DNA of 41,342 bases from Vitreoscilla sp. (GTDB taxonomy: Bacteria; Pseudomonadota; Gammaproteobacteria; Burkholderiales; Burkholderiaceae_C), in assembly GCA_018780145.1 (NCBI GenBank), contig JADMKA010000088.1, forward strand, positions 1-41,342. Direction: 5' to 3'. A program made the translations under genes and the position numbers. This document shows positions 25,674 through 36,754 of the stretch, piece after piece. The notes below the pieces were generated by a model. That model saw only the letters and a list, made by a program, of their open reading frames with translations, did no database searches and had not been told where the DNA came from. Position 1 is the stretch's first letter, and each line of letters starts with the position of its first letter.

Positions 25674-26891
25674 TTAGCGGTCGATTCGTAAGAGTCGGCC
25701 GCTGTCGGTCAGCAGGTAGATCCAGCCGTCCGGGCCCTGGCGCACGAAGCGCACCCGGTCTTTCAGCGCGCTGCCGAGGGGTTGGTCGCGCGAGACCTCG
25801 CGGCCCCCGTCGAGAACCAGGCGCCACAGGGTCTGCCCCGCCAGCGCACCGACGAAGGCGTTGCCGCGCCATTCAGGAAAGCCGCTGCCGGTGTAGAACA
25901 TCAGCCCGCTGGGGGCGGTGGAGGTGGGCACCCAGTACGAGACCGGCTCGACATAAGCCGGCGCATGGGTGCCACCGCCGATGCGGCAACCGTCTCCCAC
26001 CGGCGACCCATAGGGGCAGCCGTAGCTGACCAGCGGCCAGCCATGATTGCCGGCGCGCTGCACGCGGTTCAGCTCGTCACCGCCCTGCGGGCCGTGCTCG
26101 GTGAGCCAGAGCTCACCGGTGTCCGGGTGAATCGCCAGGCCCTGCGGGTTGCGGTGGCCGTAGCTCCAGATCTCGGGGCGGCTGCCCGGGCCGAGCGGCG
26201 GGTCGTCCGGTGGCAGGCTGCCGTCCGGCCGGATGCGCACCACCTTGCCCAGCGTGGTGGCGAGGTCCTGCGCCGGGCTGCCGAGCTGGCGCTCGCCCAG
26301 CGAGACGAACAGGCTGCCGTCGGGCGCGAAGGCCAGGCGCGAGCCGAAGTGGCCGTTGCCCGACACCTTGGGAACCTGCCGGTAGATCACCTGCAGCGCC
26401 TGCAACTCGTTGCCGACCAGCCGGCCGCGGGCCACCGCGGTGCCGGTACGGCCCGCATCGCTGCCGGTGCCGGGCTCCGAGTAGCTGAGGTACACCCAGG
26501 GCTGGCTGGCGAACTGGGGGTCGATTACCACGTCCATCAGGCCGCCTTGGCCGGCCGCGACCACCCTGGGCACGCCGGCGATCTCCGCCTCGATGGTGCG
26601 GCCATCGGCCGACAGGCGGCGCAGGCGGCCGGCCTTTTCGGTGACCAGCATGCGGCCATCGGGCAGGAAGGCCAGGCCCCACGGGCTGGCGAGGGCGGTG
26701 TTCAGCTCCGCCACCTTGGCGCCGCCCGGCGCTGGCGCCGGTGGGGTCGTGGAGGCCCCGCCGCAACTGCTGCCACTCGCGACCACCATCAGCCAGGCCA
26801 CGGCCAAGCCGGCCCGGCGCACGCCACGGCGCAGCGGAGTGCGCGTGGCGTCGGCAGCCGCGTCGCGAGGAGGGGGTTCCGGTGTCGCCAT
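25674..26891 (-). CDS. PQQ-dependent sugar dehydrogenase (soluble aldose dehydrogenase, YliI-like)
   Basis: 405 residues from ATG 26891. The N-terminus has a basic region then a hydrophobic segment ending in VVASGSSCGG, so it is exported, possibly as a lipoprotein at Cys43, though the lipobox is weak. The beta-propeller motifs are clear: ASPWGLAFLPDGRMLVTEKA, GQGGLMDVVIDPQF, GNGHFGSRLAFAPDGSLFVS (catalytic His region), IWSYGHRNPQGLAIHPDTGE and EHGPQGGDELNRV. It would oxidise aldoses with PQQ in the periplasm. No PQQ synthesis genes are in the window. Confidence 0.9.
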   Translation of the reverse strand: MATPEPPPRDAAADATRTPLRRGVRRAGLAVAWLMVVASGSSCGGASTTPPAPAPGGAKVAELNTALASPWGLAFLPDGRMLVTEKAGRLRRLSADGRTIEAEIAGVPRVVAAGQGGLMDVVIDPQFASQPWVYLSYSEPGTGSDAGRTGTAVARGRLVGNELQALQVIYRQVPKVSGNGHFGSRLAFAPDGSLFVSLGERQLGSPAQDLATTLGKVVRIRPDGSLPPDDPPLGPGSRPEIWSYGHRNPQGLAIHPDTGELWLTEHGPQGGDELNRVQRAGNHGWPLVSYGCPYGSPVGDGCRIGGGTHAPAYVEPVSYWVPTSTAPSGLMFYTGSGFPEWRGNAFVGALAGQTLWRLVLDGGREVSRDQPLGSALKDRVRFVRQGPDGWIYLLTDSGRLLRIDR

Positions 26892-26981
26892 GGCAGCCGA
26901 TATTGACAGGGCGCCCTTGGCTTGCCAAGGCCGCTGCACCATCGAGCCGGAAACCAGTTGTTGCGCCCCGCGGGAGGTGCG

Positions 26982-28325
26982 CTACACCAGCGCCAGCACC
27001 CGGTCCACCATCACGCCCGACTGGCCCAGGTAGTTCGCCGGATCCAGCATGCGCTGCAGCGCCGCGCGGTCCACGTGGCGGGCGATCTCAGGGTGGCCGG
27101 CCAGCAGCTCCAGCAAGGGCACCTTCTTGGCGAGCGACTCGCGGCACAGGTCGTAGACCAGGTCGTGCGCATACTCGCGGCCGATGAACTTGCCCAGGCC
27201 CATCATCACCGCCTCGCTCATCACCAGGCCGCCGGTCATGTCGATGTTGCGGCGCATGGCCTCGGCATCCACCTGCAGGCCCTCGACGACGAAGCGCGAC
27301 TGCTTGAGCGCGCCGGCCATCAGGCAGAAGGCCTCGGGCAGCACGATCCACTCGATCTCCCACGGGCCGGTCGAGCGCTCGTGGTCGGCCACCATCGCGT
27401 CCATCAGCGCGGCGGCGTGCTGGCGCACGACCGAGATGGCGGCGTGGATGTAGCAGCTCGAGATCGGGTTGCGCTTCTGCGGCATGGTGCTGCTGGAGCC
27501 GCGGCCGTGGTGGTACGGCTCGTAGACCTCGCCGACCTCCGTCTGCATCATCAGCTTCACGTCCATGCTGAGCTTGCCGAGCGTGCCGCCGATCAGCCCC
27601 AGCACCGCGCCGACCTCGGCGATGTTGTCGCGGATCGTGTGCCAGGCGATCACCGGCTGCTTCAGGCCCAGCTCTGCGCAAAGGCCGGCCTGGGTCTCCA
27701 TCGCGCCGGTTTCCAGCGAGGCCAGGGTGCCCGCCGCGCCGGCGAACTCGCCCACCAGCACCCGCTCCTTCAGCTGCGCCAGGCGCTCGCGGTGGCGCAG
27801 CACGGCCGACAGCAGGCCGGCCATCTTGTAGCCGAAGGTCACCGGAATGGCTTGCTGCAGGTTGCTGCGGCCGATGATGGGCGTCAGGCGGTGCTCCTGC
27901 GCCAGCCTGGCCAATGCCGCGGCGATGGCGGCCAGCTCGTCGTCCACCAGTTGCAGGGCCTGGCGGATCTGCAGCACGGTGGCGGTGTCGGTGATGTCCT
28001 GCGTGGTCGCGCCCCAGTGCACGTACTCGCCCAGCTTGTCGCGGCAGAGCTGGTTGATCTGCGTGACCACACCGAGGATGGGGTAGCCGATGCGCTCGGT
28101 CTGCTGGCGCAGGCGGGCCATGTCGATCTGCTCCAGGTGGCAGTGGCTGACGATCTCCTCGGCGGCTTCCGGAGGGATCAGCCCGAGCCGGCCCTGCACG
28201 ACGGCCAGCGCACGCTCGACCTCGATGTACTGGCGTGTGCGGTTCTCGTCCGACCAGACCTCGCGCATCGCGTCGGTCGTGAAGATGCCCTGGAAGATGC
28301 TGGAGTCGATGATCGAAGCGGCCAT
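26982..28325 (-). CDS. Fumarase/aspartase-superfamily lyase (CMLE/PurB-like); candidate trans-aconitate decarboxylase
   Basis: 447 residues from ATG 28325, with AGGAGA eight bases upstream. Superfamily signatures: YVHWGATTQDITDTA (101-115) and GSSSTMPQKRNP (276-287), the loop with the catalytic serine. At the second motif it has GRSNLQQAIPVTFG, without the His found in fumarases, as in the 3-carboxymuconate cycloisomerase branch. Generic annotation would be adenylosuccinate lyase or PcaB, but no purine or protocatechuate genes are near. It is the last gene of an operon that encodes itaconate-type CoA enzymes and a PrpF isomerase. The fungal trans-aconitate decarboxylase Tad1 belongs to this superfamily, so decarboxylation of trans-aconitate to itaconate is a reasonable but unproven role. 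Confidence 0.85.
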   Translation of the reverse strand: MAASIIDSSIFQGIFTTDAMREVWSDENRTRQYIEVERALAVVQGRLGLIPPEAAEEIVSHCHLEQIDMARLRQQTERIGYPILGVVTQINQLCRDKLGEYVHWGATTQDITDTATVLQIRQALQLVDDELAAIAAALARLAQEHRLTPIIGRSNLQQAIPVTFGYKMAGLLSAVLRHRERLAQLKERVLVGEFAGAAGTLASLETGAMETQAGLCAELGLKQPVIAWHTIRDNIAEVGAVLGLIGGTLGKLSMDVKLMMQTEVGEVYEPYHHGRGSSSTMPQKRNPISSCYIHAAISVVRQHAAALMDAMVADHERSTGPWEIEWIVLPEAFCLMAGALKQSRFVVEGLQVDAEAMRRNIDMTGGLVMSEAVMMGLGKFIGREYAHDLVYDLCRESLAKKVPLLELLAGHPEIARHVDRAALQRMLDPANYLGQSGVMVDRVLALV

Positions 28326-28356
28326 GTGGAGTCTCCTGAAGATGTGGGCTAGGTAT

Positions 28357-29163
28357 TCAGTGGCGGGCGCGGGCCTGCAGGGCGAGTGCGCGCTGCAGCA
28401 CCGGCTTGTCGACCATGCGGCCGTCGACCTGCACGGCGGCGCCTCGCGCGGCCTCGGCGGCGGCGATCACGCGCTGGGCCCAGGCCAGCTCGGCATCGGT
28501 CGGGCGGAATGCGGCATGCAGGGGGGCGACCTGTTGGGGGTGGATGCACAGCTTGGCGCCGAAGCCAAAGGCGCGTGCCCAGGCGAAGTCAGCCAGCAGC
28601 CGGGCCTCGTCGTGGATCTCCGGCGTGACGCCGGCCACCGGTGCGGGCAGGCCGGCGGCGCGCGAGGCCAGCGCGATGCAGGCCGCGGCATGGGCCAGGC
28701 CGGCGGGCTCGGGGGCGATGCCAAGGTCCAGCGCGAAATCCAGCGTGCCGAATACCAGGCGCGAAACCCCCGGCGCAGCGGCCACCTCGTTCACGGCAAC
28801 GACCCCTGTCGCGCTCTCGATCAGCGCCAGCACCTGGGCGCCGGGCAAGGCCGCGCACACGGTGGCGATCTGCGAGGCGGTCTCGGCCTTGGGCAGCATC
28901 ACGTGAGTGGCACCGGCCGCGGCCAGCATCGCCAGGTCGTCGTGGAAGCCCGGAGCCGCAACGTCGTTGATGCGCACCGCCACGCGCTCGGCACGCGCCG
29001 GCGTCAGCCAGGCCGCAATGGCCTCGCGGGCCAGCGCCTTGCGCTTGGGGGCCACCGCGTCTTCAAGATCGAGCACCACGACATCGGCGCCGCTGGCGGC
29101 CGCCTTGTCGAAGCGCTCGGGGCGGTCGCCCGGCACGAACAGATAGCTGCGCGGCATGTTCAT
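28357..29163 (-). CDS. CitE-like HpcH/HpaI lyase, probable citramalyl-CoA lyase
   Basis: 268 residues; ATG 29163 overlaps the CoA-transferase stop (ATGA). The TIM-barrel motifs of the CitE group are visible: MPRSYLFVPGDRPERFDKA, ADVVVLDLEDAVAPKRK (metal-binding Glu/Asp), VAVRINDVAAPGFHDDL, HVMLPKAETASQI, LALIESATGVVAVNE, LVFGTLDFALDLGI and the C-terminal LCIHPQQVAPLHAAF. CitE-like enzymes cleave citramalyl-CoA to acetyl-CoA and pyruvate, or malyl-CoA types. With a class III CoA transferase and a MaoC-like hydratase directly upstream, citramalyl-CoA is the most likely substrate (as with Pseudomonas Ccl). Confidence 0.88.
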   Translation of the reverse strand: MNMPRSYLFVPGDRPERFDKAAASGADVVVLDLEDAVAPKRKALAREAIAAWLTPARAERVAVRINDVAAPGFHDDLAMLAAAGATHVMLPKAETASQIATVCAALPGAQVLALIESATGVVAVNEVAAAPGVSRLVFGTLDFALDLGIAPEPAGLAHAAACIALASRAAGLPAPVAGVTPEIHDEARLLADFAWARAFGFGAKLCIHPQQVAPLHAAFRPTDAELAWAQRVIAAAEAARGAAVQVDGRMVDKPVLQRALALQARARH

Positions 29164-30338
29164 ACCGCGCTCTCGGCCCGCAACGCGGCGATGTCCGCGG
29201 CGTTCAAGCCCAGTTCGGCCAGGATCGCATCGGTGTGCTCGCCCAGTGCGGGCACCGGGTCCATGCGCGGCTCTTCATGCCACGATCCCGGCGGCAGCAT
29301 CGCGGGCAGCGGGCCGACCGGCGAGCCCACCTCGCGCCAGCGCTGGCGGGCCTTCAACTGCGGATGCGCCCAGACCTCGGCCATGGTGTTCACGCGGGCG
29401 TTGGCGATCTGCGCCAGCTCCAGCCGCTCGACCACCTGGGCCGCTGTCAGCGGCGCGAAGGCCAGGACGATGATCGCCCGCAACGCCGCGCGCTCGGCGC
29501 TGCGGCGCGAGTTGCTGGTGAAGCGCGGGTCCTGCGCCAGCGCGGGCTGCAGCAGCACCTTGTCGCAGAAGGCCCCCCATTCGCGCTCGTTCTGCAGGCC
29601 CAGCATCACCGTGCCGCCGTCGCCGGCGGGGAAGGGGCCGTAGGGGTAGATGGTGGCGTGGCTGGCGCCGGTGCGCGGCGGCGGCGCGGCGCCTTCGTAG
29701 GCGTAGTACAACGGGTAGCTGGTCCACTCGGCCAGCGACTCCAGCATCGACACGTCGATGTGCTGGCCGCGGCCGGTCTGGGCGCGCTGCAGCAGGGCGG
29801 CCAGGATGTTGGTGTAGGCGTACATGCCGGCGGCAATGTCGGCGATCGACGGCCCGGCCTTGCAGGGCTCGTCGGGCGTGCCGGTCACCGAGACGAAGCC
29901 GGCCTCGCTCTGGATCAGCAGGTCGTAGGCCTTCTTGTCGCGGTAGGGCCCGTCGCCGCCGTAGCCCGAGATGTCGCAGACGATGATGCCGGGCTTCAGC
30001 GCCGCGAGCTTGTCGTAACCCAGGCCCAGGCGCGCCGAGGCGCCGGGGGCCAGGTTCTGGATCACCACGTCGGCCTTTTCCAGCACCAGGCGCTGCAGGA
30101 TCTCGTTCGCCTTCGGGTGCTTCACGTCGAGCGTCAGGCTTTCCTTGCTGCGATTGGTCCAGACGAAGTGCGAGGCCAGGCCGCGCACGCGCTCGTCGTA
30201 GCCGCGGGCGAAGTCGCCCACGCCGGGGCGCTCGATCTTGATCACCCGCGCGCCCAGGTCGGCGAGCTGGCGGGTGGCGAACGGGGCCGCGATCGCATGT
30301 TCCAGCGTCACGACGGTCAGGCCCTTGAGGGGTTGCAT
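29160..30338 (-). CDS. Class III CoA transferase (CaiB/BaiF), probable itaconate/mesaconate CoA transferase
   Basis: 392 residues. Family features: LEHAIAAPFATRQLADLGA, RVIKIERPGVGDFARGYD, NRSKESLTLDVKHPKANEIL, ISGYGGDGPYRDKKAYDLL and TGRGQHIDVSMLESLAEW. Asp167 in GPSIADIAAGMYAY is at the place of the catalytic aspartate that forms the acyl anhydride. The enzyme would move CoA, probably from succinyl-CoA, to a dicarboxylate. The order CitE, CoA transferase, MaoC hydratase is that of known itaconate clusters (ccl, ict, ich). It is 13 bp from the MaoC gene and overlaps the CitE gene by 4 bp. Confidence 0.92.
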   Translation of the reverse strand: MQPLKGLTVVTLEHAIAAPFATRQLADLGARVIKIERPGVGDFARGYDERVRGLASHFVWTNRSKESLTLDVKHPKANEILQRLVLEKADVVIQNLAPGASARLGLGYDKLAALKPGIIVCDISGYGGDGPYRDKKAYDLLIQSEAGFVSVTGTPDEPCKAGPSIADIAAGMYAYTNILAALLQRAQTGRGQHIDVSMLESLAEWTSYPLYYAYEGAAPPPRTGASHATIYPYGPFPAGDGGTVMLGLQNEREWGAFCDKVLLQPALAQDPRFTSNSRRSAERAALRAIIVLAFAPLTAAQVVERLELAQIANARVNTMAEVWAHPQLKARQRWREVGSPVGPLPAMLPPGSWHEEPRMDPVPALGEHTDAILAELGLNAADIAALRAESAV

Positions 30339-30351
30339 GGTGCGTGGCCTT

Positions 30352-31200
30352 TCAGCGCAGCGTGGCGGTGGCGTCCATCGTCAGCCAGCCGTCGTGGTCC
30401 TGGGCCCAGAGCTTCACGGTCTTGCCGTCGGCCTGGGGTTGGCCATTCAGCCGGAAGGCGTTCAGATCGAAGGTCGGGCGAACCGCCTTGAATCGGAAGC
30501 TCGCCACCTCAGCCTCGGGCGCATGGCGGCGCAGCAGGTCCATCAGCAGCGTGGCGATCAGCGGGCCGTGCACGATCAGGCCGGGGTAGCCCTCGACCTC
30601 GGTGACGTACTTCCTGTCGTAGTGGATGCGGTGGCCATTGAAGGTCAGCGCGCTGTAGCGGAACAGCAGCACGTCGTCCGGCACGACTTCTCGTTGCCAG
30701 GCGGCGCCGGTGGCGGCGGCCACCGGTGCCGGCTCCACGTCGCCCGGCTGCTTCGCCTCGCGGTAGACGATGTCGTGGAACTCGACGATCGCCGGCTCGG
30801 CGGCACCGTTGCAGCGCAGCTCGTGGCGGACCTTGACGAACACCAGCGGGCCGGTGCGGCCTTCCTTCTGGGTCACGTCGGCGATGGTCGAGGTGCGCTC
30901 GACAGCGTCGCCGACCCGCACAGGCGCCCGGAACTCGAACTGGCTGCCGGCCCACATGCGCCGGGGCAGCGGCACCGGCGGCAGGAAGCCGCCGCGTTGG
31001 GCGTGGCCGTCCGGGCCGATCTCGCTCTGGCGATGCAGCGGCAGAAAGTACAGCCAGTGCCACAGCGGGGGCAAGGGCGTGCCGGGCCCTGCGGTGCTGG
31101 CCGGGTGGTCCAGCGTGGCTTCGAGCGCCCGCACGGGCGTGGCGGTGATGGTGTCGCGCAGCGTCTCGCTGCGGCCGATCCAGGTGCTGAGCGTGTCCAT
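30352..31200 (-). CDS. MaoC-like hydratase, itaconyl-CoA / mesaconyl-C4-CoA hydratase type
   Basis: 282 residues. It shows the long-form double hot-dog fold: PLWHWLYFLPLHRQSEIGPD, RGGFLPPVPLPRRMWAGSQF and EFRAPVRVGDAVERTSTIAD in the first half; LFRYSALTFNGHRIHYDRKY (hydratase-2 motif with the Asp/His pair) and GYPGLIVHGPLIATLLMDLL in the second. This pattern is shared by mesaconyl-C4-CoA hydratase and itaconyl-CoA hydratase (Ich), which make citramalyl-CoA. The sequence alone does not separate the two. The porin gene ends 2 bp upstream of its start. Confidence 0.9.
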   Translation of the reverse strand: MDTLSTWIGRSETLRDTITATPVRALEATLDHPASTAGPGTPLPPLWHWLYFLPLHRQSEIGPDGHAQRGGFLPPVPLPRRMWAGSQFEFRAPVRVGDAVERTSTIADVTQKEGRTGPLVFVKVRHELRCNGAAEPAIVEFHDIVYREAKQPGDVEPAPVAAATGAAWQREVVPDDVLLFRYSALTFNGHRIHYDRKYVTEVEGYPGLIVHGPLIATLLMDLLRRHAPEAEVASFRFKAVRPTFDLNAFRLNGQPQADGKTVKLWAQDHDGWLTMDATATLR

Positions 31201-31202
31201 GG

Positions 31203-32270
31203 TCAGAACGTGTGCCTTATGCCGATTTCAACGCCGCGCGAGCTGCCGCCACCGGCCATGCCGGAGATGCCGCCCGGCACGGCCAGGGTGTGCGCGCCTT
31301 CATTGTCGAGATGGGACAAGGTGCCGTACAGCGCGCTGCGCTTCGAGAGGTTGTAGAAATAGCCCAACGCCCATTGCCGTGCACCGTTGCCGTCGATGGA
31401 AGCGCCTGCGGCGCTGCCCGACATTTCTGCCCGGGTCCACGACAGTTTCAGTTCGCCCGGACCCAGCGGCACCCAGGCACCGACCAGCAGATTGGTCTGC
31501 GCTGCCGCGTCTTGCTCGAAGCGGCGCCAGGCGGCCGAGGCGCGCGCGAAACCAAGGTTGAGCTGGGCGCCGATCGCGCTGTCGGTGAAGGCCTGGTCAC
31601 CCGTCAGGTCGTTGGTGCTGCGCGTGTGGGCGGCCGACACGCCGAAGGAGTCGCCCGCGTAGCCCAGCCGCGCGCCGACCACCTTGTGCTGGCCCGTGGC
31701 AGCCGTGCCGCCCTCGCCCGCGGCGACCATCAGGCCGCCTTCGAGCCCACCCCAGCCGCTGGGCATCAACCACTGCACGGCGTTGCTGGAGCGGACGACG
31801 GTGTTGGGGTTGCTGCCGAAAGCCGACTTGATCGGTCCGACGGGCGAGGCCGAGATCAAGTTGGACGAACTGCCGACGCCGACGTAGCCGAACGGGTCGT
31901 AGCGGCTCCAGTTCGAGTAGCTCGGCACGAAGTCGCGCCCGGCGCGCAACTCGCCCAGCGTCTTGGAGGCCAGGCTCAGCGTCGAGCGGCGGTCCCAGAA
32001 CTGCGCCGCCTGGGCCGGGCTGCCGGTGTCGAGCGCCAGGCCGTGTTCCAGCCAGAAGCTGGCGGCCAGGCCGCCCCCCAGGTCTTCACTGCCGCGAAAG
32101 ACCAGGCGGCTGGTGGCGTTGCCCCCGCTCACCAGCGAGCGTTCGGTGCCGCGGCCGTCGTTGCTGACCTGGCGCAGTGCGGCGTCGGCCACGCCGCCGA
32201 GGGTCACGGTGGTCTGAGCGTGCGCGCCTGTGGCGGCGGCGACCATGGCGAATGCAAGCAGAGTCTTCAT
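31203..32270 (-). CDS. Gram-negative general porin (Porin_4/OmpC-like)
   Basis: 355 residues with signal peptide MKTLLAFAMVAAATGAHA, then QTTVTLGGVADAALRQVSND, the loop LVFRGSEDLGGGLAASFWLE and typical betaproteobacterial porin strands (RRSTLSLASKTLGELRAGRD). It ends in the outer-membrane signature EIGIRHTF with terminal Phe. A trimeric porin would let small anions across the outer membrane. Its place inside the operon, between the binding protein and the hydratase, suggests it serves the same acid substrate. It has AGGAGAA ahead of its start. Confidence 0.92.
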   Translation of the reverse strand: MKTLLAFAMVAAATGAHAQTTVTLGGVADAALRQVSNDGRGTERSLVSGGNATSRLVFRGSEDLGGGLAASFWLEHGLALDTGSPAQAAQFWDRRSTLSLASKTLGELRAGRDFVPSYSNWSRYDPFGYVGVGSSSNLISASPVGPIKSAFGSNPNTVVRSSNAVQWLMPSGWGGLEGGLMVAAGEGGTAATGQHKVVGARLGYAGDSFGVSAAHTRSTNDLTGDQAFTDSAIGAQLNLGFARASAAWRRFEQDAAAQTNLLVGAWVPLGPGELKLSWTRAEMSGSAAGASIDGNGARQWALGYFYNLSKRSALYGTLSHLDNEGAHTLAVPGGISGMAGGGSSRGVEIGIRHTF

Positions 32271-32307
32271 CAGGTTCTCCTGTGGGTGTTGTTGTGGGGG
32301 TTGCGGG

Positions 32308-33267
32308 TCAGTCCGCGCTGAGCTTGGCCTTCTGGACCACGCCCTTCCAGCGGGCGAGTTCGTCCTTCACCAGCTTGCCGAACGCCTCGGGTGTGCTGGT
32401 CTCGACATCGGCGCCGTGGTCCTCGATGCGCTTGATGATGTCCTTGTCGTTAAGCACCTGGTTCAGCGCCTTGTTCAGTTGCTCGACGATGGGCTTGGGC
32501 GTCTTGGCCGGCGCGAAGAGGCCGTACCACTGCTGTACGTCGACGCCGTCCACCCCGGCCTCCTTCAGCGTGGGCACGTCCGGCATCAGCGGCGAGCGCT
32601 TCGGCCCGGCGATGGCCATCGCCTTCAGCTTGCCGGCCTTCACGTGAGGCAAGGCCGTGAAGAAGCTGGGGAACATGAACTGGGTCTGGCCGCCGATGGT
32701 GTCGCTCACCGCGGGGGCCGAGCCCTTGTAGGGCACGCCCAGCATCACCACGCCGGCGTTCAGCTTGAACAGCTCGGCGGCGTAGTGCGGTGCGGTGCCG
32801 TTGCCGGCCGAGGCGTAGGTGTACTTGTCCGGCTTGGCCTTGAGCTGGGCGATGAGGTCCTTCACGTCCTTGACCGGCACCGTGGCGCTGGAGACCATCA
32901 GCGTGGGCGAGGTGCCCACCAGGCCCACCGCCTCGAAATCGGCCACCGGGTCGTAGCGCAGCTTTTGCAGCGCCGGGTTCATCGCGTGGGTGGCGATGTA
33001 GCCGAACATCAGCGTGTGGCCATCCGGCGTGGCGCGGGCCACGTACTCGCTGGCGATGGAGCCGTTGGCCCCGGCGCGGTTGTCGATGATGATGGTCTGG
33101 CCGAGCAGCGGGCCCAGCTTCTGGGCGATGGTGCGGGCCATCGCGTCGTTGCCGCCGCCGGCGGCGGTGGGCACCACCAGCGTGATGGTCTTGTCGGGCC
33201 AGGCCATGGCGGCCGGGGCGGACGCAGCCAGGGTGGCGGCGAGCGCGGGGGCGATGAGTTTCTGCAT
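32308..33267 (-). CDS. Tripartite tricarboxylate transporter substrate-binding protein (Bug/TctC), internal start
   Basis: 319 residues from ATG 33267, preceded by AGGAGA at good spacing, the same ribosome binding site as the lyase gene. MQKLIAPALAATLAASAPAA then MAW is a signal peptide; the mature domain has PDKTITLVVPTAAGGGNDAM, IIIDNRAGANGSIASEYVAR, DGHTLMFGYIATHAMNPALQ and GVPYKGSAPAVSDTIGGQTQ. TctC/Bug proteins bind carboxylates in the periplasm. The membrane parts TctA and TctB are not in the window, as is usual for the many orphan Bug proteins of Burkholderiales. It shares the frame of the upstream isomerase with no stop between them. Confidence 0.88.
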   Translation of the reverse strand: MQKLIAPALAATLAASAPAAMAWPDKTITLVVPTAAGGGNDAMARTIAQKLGPLLGQTIIIDNRAGANGSIASEYVARATPDGHTLMFGYIATHAMNPALQKLRYDPVADFEAVGLVGTSPTLMVSSATVPVKDVKDLIAQLKAKPDKYTYASAGNGTAPHYAAELFKLNAGVVMLGVPYKGSAPAVSDTIGGQTQFMFPSFFTALPHVKAGKLKAMAIAGPKRSPLMPDVPTLKEAGVDGVDVQQWYGLFAPAKTPKPIVEQLNKALNQVLNDKDIIKRIEDHGADVETSTPEAFGKLVKDELARWKGVVQKAKLSAD

Positions 33268-34368
33268 GTCCTTGTCTCCTGAAATGGGTTTGGAAAACAC
33301 GTACTCGGGGATGTGCAGGTCGCCCTGCAGGATCTTTCGCGCGGTGCGCACGAGCGCGGCGCGCTGGATGCGGGCGTCGTCGCCCTGGCCTTCGATGACC
33401 GCTTCGACCTCGATGCGGCCTTGGGGGTGCAGCACGGCCACCTTGCGCGTGCCGCTCTGGCCCAGCGGGCTGCTGGCCACGGTGCCCGGCAGCGCAAAGG
33501 CGGTGGCCACGCCGATGGCGCCGGTGACCGCGTGCGAGGCATGGCAACGCCGCGGCGTGAAGTAGCGCGAGGTGATGCTGTGTTCGTCGTCGCCGGCGCT
33601 GACGATCACCGGCTTGGGGATCACGCTGTCGGACACATCACCCAGGCCCATGCGCTCGCCGGCGGCCAGGCGCAACTGCTCGATGCGGGCCAGCAGCGCG
33701 CGGTCGGCGTCCAGATCGGTGGGTGATTCGCGGCCGCTGAGGCCCAGATCTGCCGCGCGCAGGATCATCAGCGGCATCGCTGCGTCGATGCAGGTGAGTT
33801 CGATGCCGTCGATGGTGTCGATGCGCCGGCCGGTGGGGAACAGCGAGCCGGTCACCGAGCCCCAGGCATCCAGGAAGTTCAGGCGGATCGGTGCGGCGCT
33901 GCCGGCCACACCGTCGATGCTGGTGCTGCCTTCGTAGCTGACGCGGCCGCCAGGGGTGAGCACGGTGACGTCGATGCGCGAGCGTGTGTTCACGTTGAAC
34001 ACACGCACCGTGGTTTCGCCGTCCGCGGCCTGCACCAGCCCCTGCTCGATGGCGAAGGGGGCCACGCCCGAGAGCATGTTGCCGCAGTTGGGACGGGTGT
34101 CGACCGATTTCTGGCCGACGCCGACCTGGGCAAACAGGTAGTCCACATCGCAATCCGGCTGCTCCGAGCGCGAGACGATGGCCACCTTGCTGGTCAGGGT
34201 GCTGCCGCCGCCCACGCCGTCCACCTGCAGCAGATCGGATGCGCCGATGGCGCCGATCAAGGCCTGGTCGCGCGCCTCGTCGCCAGCGGGCAACCAGTCT
34301 CGCAGGAAGAACGGGCCGCGCGAGGTGCCGGCACGCATCAGGACGCAGGGGACGGTGAGTGAAGCCAT
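32308..34368 (-). CDS. PrpF-type isomerase read in frame into TctC-like binding protein (686-aa open frame)
   Basis: From ATG 34368 the first about 362 residues are a complete PrpF-family isomerase: MRAGTSRGPFFLRDWLP, GGGSTLTSKVAIVSRS (Lys61), DTRPNCGNMLSGVAPFA (Cys95 in NCGN), SRYFTPRRCHASHAVTGAIG. The family moves double bonds or isomerises methylaconitate, methylitaconate, oxalomesaconate or aconitate. Where the gene should end (YVFSKP) no stop occurs; ISGDKD leads straight into the signal peptide of TctC at 33267. A single base change at 33280-33282 (TCA for TGA) would separate the genes. So either a true fusion or a lost stop. A fused TctC would not be exported normally, so the internal start likely matters. 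Divergent from LysR. Confidence 0.8.
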   Translation of the reverse strand: MASLTVPCVLMRAGTSRGPFFLRDWLPAGDEARDQALIGAIGASDLLQVDGVGGGSTLTSKVAIVSRSEQPDCDVDYLFAQVGVGQKSVDTRPNCGNMLSGVAPFAIEQGLVQAADGETTVRVFNVNTRSRIDVTVLTPGGRVSYEGSTSIDGVAGSAAPIRLNFLDAWGSVTGSLFPTGRRIDTIDGIELTCIDAAMPLMILRAADLGLSGRESPTDLDADRALLARIEQLRLAAGERMGLGDVSDSVIPKPVIVSAGDDEHSITSRYFTPRRCHASHAVTGAIGVATAFALPGTVASSPLGQSGTRKVAVLHPQGRIEVEAVIEGQGDDARIQRAALVRTARKILQGDLHIPEYVFSKPISGDKDMQKLIAPALAATLAASAPAAMAWPDKTITLVVPTAAGGGNDAMARTIAQKLGPLLGQTIIIDNRAGANGSIASEYVARATPDGHTLMFGYIATHAMNPALQKLRYDPVADFEAVGLVGTSPTLMVSSATVPVKDVKDLIAQLKAKPDKYTYASAGNGTAPHYAAELFKLNAGVVMLGVPYKGSAPAVSDTIGGQTQFMFPSFFTALPHVKAGKLKAMAIAGPKRSPLMPDVPTLKEAGVDGVDVQQWYGLFAPAKTPKPIVEQLNKALNQVLNDKDIIKRIEDHGADVETSTPEAFGKLVKDELARWKGVVQKAKLSAD

Positions 34369-34419
34369 GGCCGAATGATGTTCGGCCGATCGATGCAAGG
34401 GAATTGCCTAATAATCATC

Positions 34420-34444
34420 GATTGATCCATGAAACAGATCAATC
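34420..34444. promoter_or_regulatory. Inverted repeat in the divergent LysR/prpF promoter region
   Basis: GATTGATC, a 9-base spacer, then GATCAATC: perfect 8-base arms in an AT-rich patch. It lies 15 bp before the LysR start and 52 bp before the prpF start. The T(n)A pattern and the place between a LysR gene and its divergent operon fit a LysR-type binding site that would regulate both. Binding is inferred. Confidence 0.7.
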
Positions 34445-34459
34445 AACCGGAGCACAGCC

Positions 34460-35395
34460 ATGGCGATCCAGTTCGATCTCAACGACTTGCAGGCCTTTCG
34501 CGCGGTGGCCGAGCTGCAGAACTTCCGCCGTGCGGCGGAGGCCGTGCACATCTCGCAGCCGGCCTTCAGCCGCCGCATCGAGAAGCTGGAGCAGGCGCTT
34601 GGCGTGCGCCTGCTGGAGCGCACCACCCGCAAGGTCAGCCTCACGGCCGTGGGCCGCGAGTTCGCGCGCAGCGTGGCGCAGTGGCTGGATGAGTTGGACG
34701 GCACCTTGCTGGCCCTGCGCGGCATCGCCCCCACGCGCATGGGCGAGGTGACGGTGGCCTGCGTGCCGTCCACCGTCTACTACTACCTGTCGCAGGTGAT
34801 CCGCCGCTACCGCGAGACCTACCCGAAGATCCGGGTGCGGGTGCTCGATGCCGGCGCCAACGAGGTGCTGGCCGCGGTGGCCGGCGGCGAGGCCGATTTC
34901 GGGCTGAACTTCATCGGCAGCCAGGAGCCGGACATCGAGTTCCGCGCGCTGGTGGAGGAGCGCTTCGTGGCCGCCTGCCGGCGCGACCACCCACTGGCCA
35001 AACGCCGCCGCGTGACCTGGCGCGATCTCGGTGAGTACGACTTCATCACCGTCAGCAAAGCCTCCGGCAACCGGCTGCTGCTGGACCAGGCGCTGGCCGG
35101 CGTGCCGGGCCGCCCGCAAGCGGTGTACGAGGCCCAGCACGTGACCACGCTGCTGGGTCTCGTCGAAGCCGGCCTGGGCGTGGCGGCGGTGCCGTCGATG
35201 GCGATGCCAGGCAAAGATCACCCGCTGCTGGTCAGCATCCCTTTGGAGGAGCCCACGGTGACGCGGCATGTGGGGTTGATCCGACGGCGCGGGCGGGCAT
35301 TGACGCCGGCAGCGCAGCAGCTGTTTGATTTCTTTGCGGACATCTCGCCAGCTGGCTCAGCGGGCAAGGGTCGACAGGCGCGTCGGGCGCGTTGA
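34460..35395 (+). CDS. LysR-family transcriptional regulator
   Basis: 311 residues from ATG 34460, with CGGAG upstream. The winged helix-turn-helix occupies residues about 4-62 (LNDLQAFRAVAELQNFRRAA, VHISQPAFSRRIEKLEQALG), followed by the effector domain (MGEVTVACVPSTVYYYLSQV, GGEADFGLNFIGSQEPDIEF, LLGLVEAGLGVAAVPSMAM). It is divergent from the operon at 26982-34368 and very likely controls it, with the pathway substrate or an intermediate as co-inducer. The C-terminal tail is basic (GSAGKGRQARRAR). Confidence 0.93.
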   Translation: MAIQFDLNDLQAFRAVAELQNFRRAAEAVHISQPAFSRRIEKLEQALGVRLLERTTRKVSLTAVGREFARSVAQWLDELDGTLLALRGIAPTRMGEVTVACVPSTVYYYLSQVIRRYRETYPKIRVRVLDAGANEVLAAVAGGEADFGLNFIGSQEPDIEFRALVEERFVAACRRDHPLAKRRRVTWRDLGEYDFITVSKASGNRLLLDQALAGVPGRPQAVYEAQHVTTLLGLVEAGLGVAAVPSMAMPGKDHPLLVSIPLEEPTVTRHVGLIRRRGRALTPAAQQLFDFFADISPAGSAGKGRQARRAR

Positions 35396-35563
35396 GTTCG
35401 CGGCGCGACGGTCTGAGCTCAGTGTGATGGGGCGGGCCTCCAGCCTCGTGTGCCCCCACGATTGAAGGGCCACCAAAGTGAATCCGTTGGCGATCTGTTG
35501 GTCCGCCGCAGGCGTGCCTCACTAGAGTCTGCTCAATGGCCAGGTCGGCCGCGGGAGCCCCTC

Positions 35564-36754
35564 ATGAAGCGCACCATCACCTTGATCGCATTCGCCGTGT
35601 CCTGCACCCTGGCCCAGGCGGCCGGTGGCACGCATTGGGAGTTCGAGCACCTGTATTCCTTCAACCCCGCCAGGGGAGATGGTTCCACCCCGCTGGCCGG
35701 TTTGGTCGAAGCGGGCGGCGCCTTCTGGGGAACCACCAGCGCCGGCGGCCCCGGGCGGGGCGCGCAAGGCAACGTCTTCAAGTTCGTGCCCGGCACCGCG
35801 CCGGTGGTGATGCACACCTTCCGCGGCGGCGATGGGGCGACGCCGCGGGGCGAGCTGCTGGCCGTCGGCCGCAGCCTCTATGGCACCGTGGAAAACGGCA
35901 TGCTCGACAACCAGGGCGGCATCTACCGCATCTCCACCTTGGGCAGCTTCAAGGTGATGCACAAGTTCCTTGAGGAAGAGGGCACGAACCCCAGCGCGGG
36001 CCTGATGCGGCACTCGAACGGCAATTTCTACGGCACCGCGGTGGGCGGCGGCGTCAACTACGGCGGCCTGGGCACGGTGTTCCAGATGACGCCCGCCGGC
36101 GTGGTCACTGTCCTGTTCTCCGATTTCGAGGGCTGGTATGCCGGCCCCAAGAGCCCGCTCGTGCAACACGTCGACGGGTCTCTTTACGGCACCACCTCCA
36201 CCCAAGGCCCGCATGGCGGTGGCTCCGTGTACAAGATCACCACGGCCGGCACCTACGAGCTCAAGCATTCGTTCAAGAACCCCGAGGACGGGGATCTGCT
36301 GGGGTGCGCACCGCGCGCCGGCCTCACACCCATCGCCAGCGGCAGCCTGGCTGGCGTGGCGCCGTCATGCGGTGACGATATCGGGGGCACGGTGTTCAAG
36401 GTTTCGGTCGGCGGCGTCGTCAGCCTTGCGCATGACATGGTCCTCGGCGTGGATGGCATCTACCCGGAGGGCGGGCTCGCGCTGAGAGAGGGTGTTCTCT
36501 GGGGCACGACGAGGTATTGGGACGTCCAGGTCCTCTTCTACGAAGGCTGCGGCACCGTGTTTGCGATGTCGAAGACCAACAAGGTCGGCGTGCATCATGT
36601 CTTTGCCGACGACGGGTCCGAAGGCTGCGAGCCGCGAGGCACCCTGCTGAGCGCCAAGGATGGCGCGATCTACGGCACCACGAGCCGCGGCGGCGCCTAC
36701 GACGCCGGCACCATCTTCCGCCTTCGAAAGGTGAGCACGCCGCCGGTGCAGTGA
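35564..36754 (+). CDS. Secreted GloVer-type tandem-repeat protein
   Basis: 396 residues from ATG 35564. MKRTITLIAFAVSCTLAQAA is a signal peptide. The rest is a series of about seven beta-propeller-like repeats with the pattern LYGTTSxGG followed by GTVFKxT and a hydrophobic strand: FWGTTSAGGPGRGAQGNVFK, SLYGTVENG, NFYGTAVGGGVNYGGLGTVF, SLYGTTSTQGPHGGGSVYKI, AIYGTTSRGGAYDAGTIFRL. This matches 'choice-of-anchor' GloVer-containing proteins, extracellular and of unknown function. No anchor domain is visible at the C-terminus, so it is secreted or a truncated family member. Part of it (35733-35787) recurs at the window's right end. Confidence 0.85.
   Translation: MKRTITLIAFAVSCTLAQAAGGTHWEFEHLYSFNPARGDGSTPLAGLVEAGGAFWGTTSAGGPGRGAQGNVFKFVPGTAPVVMHTFRGGDGATPRGELLAVGRSLYGTVENGMLDNQGGIYRISTLGSFKVMHKFLEEEGTNPSAGLMRHSNGNFYGTAVGGGVNYGGLGTVFQMTPAGVVTVLFSDFEGWYAGPKSPLVQHVDGSLYGTTSTQGPHGGGSVYKITTAGTYELKHSFKNPEDGDLLGCAPRAGLTPIASGSLAGVAPSCGDDIGGTVFKVSVGGVVSLAHDMVLGVDGIYPEGGLALREGVLWGTTRYWDVQVLFYEGCGTVFAMSKTNKVGVHHVFADDGSEGCEPRGTLLSAKDGAIYGTTSRGGAYDAGTIFRLRKVSTPPVQ
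35733..35787 (+). repeat. 55-bp direct repeat, internal copy (within the GloVer gene)
   Basis: These 55 bases are identical to 41288-41342 at the right edge of the window. They encode the TTSAGGPGRGAQGNVFKFV part of the GloVer protein. The two preceding bases differ (AA here, GG at the end copy), so the identity starts sharply. Confidence 0.95.

Follow-up and report, generated by a model that had tools for sequence, protein, structure and literature searches.

A 41,342-nucleotide contig of Vitreoscilla sp. (JADMKA010000088.1, assembly GCA_018780145.1), hereafter the window, carries at 26982-35395 a minus-strand gene block and a divergently oriented gene for a LysR-type regulator (Table 1). 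All members of the operon listed in the initial annotation, namely a PrpF-type isomerase, a TctC binding protein, a porin, a MaoC-like hydratase, a class III coenzyme A (CoA) transferase, a CitE-like lyase and a fumarase-superfamily lyase, were recovered from the open reading frames with Pfam and NCBIfam. PrpF and TctC, which had been taken for two separate genes, were found to occupy one uninterrupted frame. From the PrpF-TctC gene to the lyase gene the intergenic gaps amount to 37, 2, 13, -4 and 31 bases, the CoA-transferase and CitE genes sharing a 4-base overlap, and these small gaps are consistent with a single transcript for the block 26982-34398. We consider it probable that the operon converts aconitate via itaconate to acetyl-CoA and pyruvate, a reading that centres on the resemblance of the lyase to Tad1 of the fungus Ustilago maydis.

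Table 1. Features of the candidate aconitate locus in the window
Feature	Coordinates	Strand	Evidence
Tad1-type lyase, proposed trans-aconitate decarboxylase, 447 aa	26982..28325	-	S277 = Tad1 S320; R317 = Tad1 R360
CitE-like lyase, proposed (S)-citramalyl-CoA lyase (Ccl)	28357..29163	-	PDB and NCBIfam matches
Class III CoA-transferase, proposed itaconate CoA-transferase (Ict)	29160..30338	-	PF02515, 356.7 bits
MaoC/FAS1-dehydratase protein, proposed itaconyl-CoA hydratase (Ich)	30352..31200	-	PDB matches
Porin, proposed outer-membrane entry	31203..32270	-	PF13609, 168.6 bits
PrpF-TctC fusion gene: aconitate-isomerase-like domain and tricarboxylate-binding domain	32308..34368	-	Single stop-free frame; NF033377
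TctC frame inside the fusion gene, 319 aa, likely internal start	32308..33267	-	ATG after GGAGAC; signal-peptide-like beginning
Proposed LysR-type operator, TGAT-N11-ATCA-N15-GCAATTC	34401..34441	-	Conservation among relatives
Divergent LysR-type regulator	34460..35395	+	PF00126 and PF03466

Relationship of the lyase to Tad1

When the lyase was compared with PDB sequences by phmmer, Tad1 scored 526.7 bits, followed by 3c8t (440.7), P. putida PcaB 1re5 (363.4), CreD (252.9) and the best PurB (187.4). A careful tree of 41 rows placed Tad1 together with 19 bacterial rows of the window-lyase type in a clade with a support of 100/100, with PcaB and the 3c8t group outside. The clade of lyase and Tad1 was also obtained in a quick tree of 78 rows, with a support of 100 in the Shimodaira-Hasegawa-like approximate likelihood ratio test (SH-aLRT), and in a careful tree of 35 rows (100/99). 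Forcing Tad1 into the 3c8t (fumarate-lyase-like) group was rejected by the approximately unbiased (AU) test with a p-AU of 5.8e-5. Identity to Tad1 was 55.3% for the window lyase and 60.8% for the lyase of a relative (locus L111), 46.9-50.3% for the sister-group proteins L042, 3c8t and L038, and 38.5% for PcaB. Searching the host genome with the lyase recovered a single match at E 1e-60, namely the window gene, with five of the 19 first-look candidates having been scored.

The AlphaFold model of the lyase had a predicted local distance difference test (pLDDT) score of 78.0 and a predicted TM-score (pTM) of 0.81; N155, S277 and R317 lie in stretches (155-157, 262-287 and 315-323, respectively) that scored below 50. 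Searched with Foldseek, this model retrieved Tad1 chains at ranks 1-12, then 3c8t and then PcaB, a ranking that is not independent of the sequence comparison since Foldseek also weighs sequence. Together, these data support the assignment of the lyase as a Tad1 orthologue, for which we propose a role as trans-aconitate decarboxylase.

Three other assignments were tried and rejected. A grouping with protocatechuate enzymes, which the initial annotation had named as speaking against its own reading, was contradicted by the clade with Tad1: the lyase stood outside the PcaB proteins of P. putida and Acinetobacter in three trees, and it missed model NF006554 (492.4 vs 595). A grouping with PurB, named there as well, was contradicted by score only, the lyase remaining below the cut-off of TIGR00928 (293.6 vs 326.2) in addition to the phmmer scores given above. 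Finally, assignment as a fumarate lyase was rejected on the basis of the trees, the AU test and the absence of S277, S154 and N155 from that group.

In the 35-row tree Tad1 grouped with a Komagataeibacter protein (89/79), both branches being long. On Komagataeibacter oboediens plasmid pKOB1 (L176), a lyase gene with the Tad signature described below lies amid transposase, recombinase and toxin-antitoxin genes.

Diagnostic residues of the lyase clade

Two Tad1 residues are highlighted by PDB titles, which name a Tad1_S320A crystal and "Tad1-R360A binding with trans-aconitate". In the alignment, S320 corresponds to S277 of the window lyase and was Ser in 86/86 rows of the clade, whereas the same column held Ala, Gly or Thr in all 33 rows outside it (19/19 fumarate-lyase-like, 8/8 PcaB-like and 6/6 others). 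R360, equivalent to R317, was Arg in all 119 rows and is hence not diagnostic. In eleven columns, one residue accounted for at least 98% of the clade, was shared by Tad1 and occurred in none of the 19 fumarate-lyase-like or the 8 PcaB-like rows. S154-N155 are among them; elsewhere these positions read T-H or mostly T-W (T-H in 19/19 fumarate-lyase-like rows). The string RSNL was present in 86/86 clade rows and GPWEIxW in 81/86; RSNL was also seen in 1/19 sister rows, at a different site, where the aligned columns read T-H.

Near 54%, overall identity to the window lyase does not decide the group, and the signature does: the Komagataeibacter plasmid protein (54.6%) has the Tad signature, and the Methylobacterium (54.5%) and Roseomonas (54.1%) proteins have that of the sister group. 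The lyase genes of the latter two adjoin genes for GntR regulators and symporters; the Methylobacterium locus also has a fumarase gene, and the Roseomonas locus one of the dihydrodipicolinate-synthase family. Further sister-group (3c8t) lyases, in L038, L040, L041, L042, L177 and L178, are found in loci composed of GntR, lyase and transporter genes, with a fumarase-like gene after the lyase in L038, L042 and L177 (those of L038 and L042 scoring below equivalog cut-offs). The loci with a fumarase-like gene suggest that the sister-group lyases are fumarate-releasing C-N or C-O lyases.

Proposed enzymes of the itaconate CoA route

The families that the initial annotation had assigned to the CoA route found sequence support in PDB matches of the MaoC and CitE proteins. 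The MaoC protein had two matches at E 0.01, itaconyl-CoA hydratase 8khg (236.7 bits) and an unnamed MaoC protein, 8huc (233.9 bits). For the CitE protein the top match was 8khl, a "probable acyl-CoA lyase beta chain" (198.4 bits), together with 9nzb (198.3 bits). We take 8khl and 8khg to be Ccl and Ich of P. aeruginosa. Pfam identified the CoA-transferase as class III (PF02515). One MaoC match and one CitE-type match at 1e-20 were found in the host genome. We propose that the MaoC, CoA-transferase and CitE proteins could act as Ich, Ict and Ccl, respectively.

Conservation of the locus among relatives

A contig scan with an alignment of the window lyase, five relatives and Tad1 yielded 309 relatives. 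The best 80 of these were kept and, with 5 others, gave 85 lyase loci, in which neighbours were recorded within about 10 kb; many of the loci are cut by contig ends, and the identity cut-offs for neighbours favour close relatives. MaoC was present near 69 of the 85 lyase genes, CoA-transferase near 63, CitE near 53, LysR (at least 45% identity) near 52 and PrpF near 47, followed by TctC (32), porin (18), TcuB (17) and TcuA (16). None of 15 more distant lyase loci had these neighbours at the same cut-offs, some having lower-identity TctC, CoA-transferase, LysR, porin or PrpF genes nearby. The frequency of MaoC, CoA-transferase, CitE and PrpF in the 85 loci, as opposed to 0/15 in the distant ones, argues that the arrangement is not due to chance. 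When only the 53 loci with long flanks were considered, MaoC was found in 47, CoA-transferase in 43, PrpF in 36, CitE in 35 and TcuA in 11.

TcuA oxidises tricarballylate to cis-aconitate. A tcuA or tcuB gene, identified with probes that pass the NCBIfam cut-offs (TcuA 731.9 vs 369; TcuB 615.2 vs 524), lay near 17/85 lyase loci, a neighbourhood that supports aconitate independently as the compound handled at these loci.

The gene for uptake varies, with TctC in the window, DctA in Azospirillum and Bradyrhizobium and a binding protein of the tripartite ATP-independent periplasmic (TRAP) type in Aromatoleum; this exchange of transporters around a constant enzyme set would fit a pathway for di- or tricarboxylates. 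On an A. brasilense plasmid, LysR adjoins PrpF-dctA-MaoC-CoA transferase-lyase. In Bradyrhizobium sp. CB82, LysR adjoins dctA-MaoC-CoA transferase-CoA ester lyase-lyase, and no PrpF match was found within 21 kb. Variovorax sp. SRS16 (L179) has MaoC-CoA transferase-CoA ester lyase-lyase-dctA, then LysR and TctC-PrpF::TctC, and in C. oxalaticus (L174) MaoC-CoA transferase-lyase adjoins a PrpF-TctC fusion. Eight loci (L104-L108, L111, L114 and L120) contain two different PrpF copies each, one lying beyond tcuAB in several of them; the paired copies may do different aconitate work.

The PrpF-TctC fusion

The fusion frame extends over 32308-34398 and has 696 codons, 686 of them from a likely ATG at 34368, with the Pfam domains PrpF at 15-364 and TctC at 421-692. 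The TctC binding protein proposed earlier as an importer is thus present as a domain; being fused to PrpF, it is no plain importer subunit. The PrpF part passes the 4-oxalomesaconate tautomerase model NF033377 (490.7 vs a cut-off of 440), and 4-oxalomesaconate tautomerase is also the closest known homologue of the U. maydis isomerase Adi1 (PMC4720413, Table 1).

Each of the 31 PrpF copies of at least 71% identity found in lyase loci is fused to TctC, an observation that is new here; contig ends truncate two of these copies (L080 and L096). No report of a PrpF-TctC fusion was found among the matches listed for open-licence PMC papers. One frame was observed in 30/30 PrpF-TctC neighbours on the plus strand and likewise in L096 on the minus strand, whereas all 23 copies at 44-52% identity are unfused. 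The fusion also occurs in L154-L156, L174 and L179. Among 300 genomes of the order to which the window belongs, the PrpF matches of at least 70% (the window and three others) lie in frames of 688-753 codons; the next match, at 63% (L157), has 395 codons, with PrpF and TctC side by side but apart. Some matches at or below 42% in these genomes are also in long open frames. Eight such distant frames (34-38% identity) served as controls, and none was fused to TctC, the extra length lying upstream in seven; the frame in L183 runs on without a TctC match, and in L184 and L187 TctC is near but apart. We rejected the possibility that the PrpF stop was lost through a sequencing error, the stop being absent from all 31 close copies as well. 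In Variovorax the fusion is annotated as one coding sequence (L179, 13850-15874, 4-oxalomesaconate tautomerase), and Pfam found both domains there and in three others. The linker varies from 31 to 88 residues between fixed marks; since the frame is kept nonetheless, the fusion is probably under selection. Confidence in the structure predicted for the fusion by AlphaFold was low (mean pLDDT 63.3, pTM 0.46).

The linker of 28/36 fusions contains a GGAGA Shine-Dalgarno sequence, a start codon and a signal-peptide-like hydrophobic stretch, which indicates that TctC could also be made alone. In the remaining eight (L119, L122, L128, L154-L156, L174 and L179) these features are all absent; L096 appeared alike by eye. 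A separate tctC gene directly precedes the signal-less fusion in L174 (Cupriavidus oxalaticus) and L179 (Variovorax). We tentatively suggest that this might be a new kind of bifunctional gene with two products: the entire fusion, whose TctC part would remain beside the isomerase, either cytoplasmic or membrane-associated, and a separate TctC that would be translated from the internal start and exported. L174 and L179 could conceivably keep both forms by means of the fusion and the separate tctC, which we regard as similarly tentative.

A putative operator

TGAT-N11-ATCA was present in 26/26 LysR-PrpF intergenic regions of close relatives, with GCAATTC at the same spacing in 25/26. With at most one mismatch the combined motif has a single site in the host genome, and the reversed control gave 0. 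We propose TGAT-N11-ATCA-N15-GCAATTC as a putative LysR-type operator. In 26/88 loci scanned the combined motif was found; in 24 of them it lies before PrpF, and all of these belong to the close group. It also precedes MaoC in L085 and L090, in which PrpF-TctC is separated from the MaoC-lyase block, opposite-strand porin genes in L062, L076, L079, L082 and L092, and tctC in L096; in L174 it lies upstream of porin-like and MaoC genes. Given its limited occurrence outside the close group, the motif argues for a shared regulon in this group and not in the whole clade.

Proposed pathway and alternatives

From the observed gene content, the orthology of the lyase to Tad1, the two Tad1 residues altered in crystals, the conserved linkage and the conserved operator, we infer an operon that is controlled by LysR and serves growth on aconitate, including all its enzymatic steps, the route of import and the inducer. 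The acid would enter via the porin and a tricarboxylate uptake system using TctC; the substrate outside the cell may be trans-aconitate, cis-aconitate or tricarballylate. The PrpF domain would interconvert cis- and trans-aconitate, and the Tad1-type lyase would decarboxylate trans-aconitate to itaconate and CO2. Itaconate would then be activated to itaconyl-CoA by the class III CoA-transferase, hydrated to (S)-citramalyl-CoA by the MaoC-type hydratase and cleaved to acetyl-CoA and pyruvate by the CitE-type lyase. This reading, already put forward in the initial annotation, has gained support from the Tad1 clade, the Ich- and Ccl-type matches and the tcu neighbours.

Several observations weigh against it. 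At the level of the individual proteins, the lyase just exceeds the PcaB model TIGR02426 (356.5 vs 355.75), and Tad1 I315, which varies between PDB chains, is His in the window and Ala, His or Tyr in the clade. The best NCBIfam model for the CitE protein, RipC_Ccl (itaconate lyase, NF038242), scored 157.5 bits, below its cut-off of 375, and the CoA-transferase reaches no NCBIfam cut-off. At the level of the loci, PrpF is missing from 17 of the 53 with long flanks, CitE from 18, CoA-transferase from 10 and MaoC from 6, and L037, L099 and L131 lack MaoC, CoA-transferase and PrpF alike. Four genomes have only a MaoC-lyase pair, with a CoA-transferase of 68-72% identity located elsewhere; in two of the three genomes mapped it is followed, by eye, by genes resembling a branched-chain-type ATP-binding cassette transporter, and this distant enzyme may serve something else. 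The full operator motif was not detected in L119, L122 and L128, which are likewise parted, and its palindrome occurs at most 330 bases before MaoC in 4 (L033, L036, L085 and L090) of the 44 loci defined by the lack of a probed gene just upstream of MaoC, some of which have an unprobed transporter gene there. A TcuA search of the host genome, run without a positive control, gave no match. Finally, the second Ich and Ccl homologues of C. necator showed low abundance in the proteomes and were assigned to other pathways by the authors (PMC12290011).

The strongest competing explanation, in our view an unlikely one, is that aconitate is isomerised to cis-aconitate for the tricarboxylic acid (TCA) cycle, as with TarA, and that itaconate is an overflow or detoxification branch. 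It overlaps with the proposed pathway in substrate and differs in flux. A PrpF-family isomerase of Bacillus velezensis is described as feeding trans-aconitate into the TCA cycle (PMC11495376), and the same PrpF-TctC fusion is found in L154-L156, where no Tad-type lyase occurs on 7-17.5 kb (a MmgE/PrpD-like frame was seen by eye within a few kb in each). On the other hand, MaoC accompanies the lyase more often than PrpF does, as the counts in the long-flank loci indicate (47/53 vs 36/53), and the confirmation by a search that a full Tad operon exists without PrpF, in Bradyrhizobium sp. CB82, made us lower our estimate for this explanation slightly. It is improbable that the operon serves external C5 acids (itaconate, mesaconate, citraconate or methylsuccinate), with PrpF as an itaconate/methylitaconate Delta-isomerase and the lyase otherwise employed: the Ich- and Ccl-type genes and the reported activity of PrpF-family Mii on itaconate (Geiser et al.) agree with such a use, but the operon lacks the acyl-CoA dehydrogenase and MmgE/PrpD genes of the known itaconate/methylsuccinate cluster, and the Tad1 orthologue and TcuAB neighbours would be left unexplained.

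Least probable of all appears a function of the lyase as a fumarate-releasing C-N/C-O lyase like the 3c8t sister group or as a PcaB-type cycloisomerase. Its superfamily membership, the TIGR02426 score and the poor separation of the groups by overall identity (sister-group plasmid proteins reach up to 54%) point in this direction, as do several sister-group loci in which a related lyase gene has transporter genes, fumarase-like genes and genes for GntR-like regulators as neighbours. Against it stand the trees, the AU test, the absence of S277, S154 and N155 from those groups and an operon without a fumarase or protocatechuate gene.

Comparison with known systems

With the itaconate cluster of U. 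maydis (PMC4720413) the window shares the orthologous lyase, at 55% identity and in one clade with Tad1, and a PrpF-family isomerase, as is Adi1. The fungus makes and exports itaconate, whereas the window joins the decarboxylase to itaconate degradation, uptake genes and LysR. The ich, mcd, mmgE, ict and ccl cluster of P. aeruginosa and C. necator (PMC12290011) combines Ich and Ccl enzymes with a CoA-transferase, as the window does with its Ich-type and putative Ccl-type proteins and its class III enzyme; in contrast to it, the window has neither mcd nor mmgE, and has a Tad1-type lyase and the PrpF-TctC fusion. Gonner et al. 2025 (PMC12290011) assigned a similar second cluster of Cupriavidus to "a different pathway". 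Since C. oxalaticus has MaoC-CoA transferase-lyase beside a PrpF-TctC fusion, the second C. necator cluster may be the same system as that of the window. The tar genes of B. velezensis (TarA isomerase, TarB importer and TarR; PMC11495376) resemble the window in a PrpF-family isomerase, an importer, a divergent LysR and, as proposed for the window, trans-aconitate as substrate, but there cis-aconitate is fed into the TCA cycle, and the string "itaconi" occurs 0 times in the text of that paper. The tricarballylate genes tcuA and tcuB are linked to the Tad loci by the 17 neighbourhoods described above and differ in that the host genome gave no TcuA match.

Among the matches listed for open-licence PMC papers (titles and beginnings of abstracts), no report of a bacterial Tad was found, nor one of the sequence from aconitate via itaconate to acetyl-CoA and pyruvate. 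In the literature found, Tad-type decarboxylases are so far confined to smut fungi, and the combination joins two known pathways that were not described together. Aconitate is abundant in grasses. In maize, trans-aconitate is described as the organic acid present in greatest abundance (PMC5375134). As to its use by bacteria, the published account found describes isomerisation to cis-aconitate, which enters the TCA cycle (PMC11495376). Pseudomonas putida has been engineered for itaconate, with tad1 and adi1 named in that work (PMC8050072).

Should the bacterial lyases indeed be Tad enzymes, itaconate, an antimicrobial acid, would be made by bacteria as a catabolic intermediate, and a function could be given to proteins currently annotated as PcaB or "adenylosuccinate lyase family", those of Azospirillum and Bradyrhizobium among them. 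The second C. necator cluster might then be explained, bacterial Tad enzymes would become available for itaconate production, and the finding would bear on the origin of Tad1 in smut fungi.

Neighbouring genes

On the minus strand, a gene of the glucose/sorbosone dehydrogenase family (25674-26942) begins 39 bases past the stop of the lyase gene, and co-transcription is possible. Downstream of the LysR gene, on the plus strand, lies a gene for a GloVer-type tandem-repeat protein (35450-36754; TIGR03803, five stretches).

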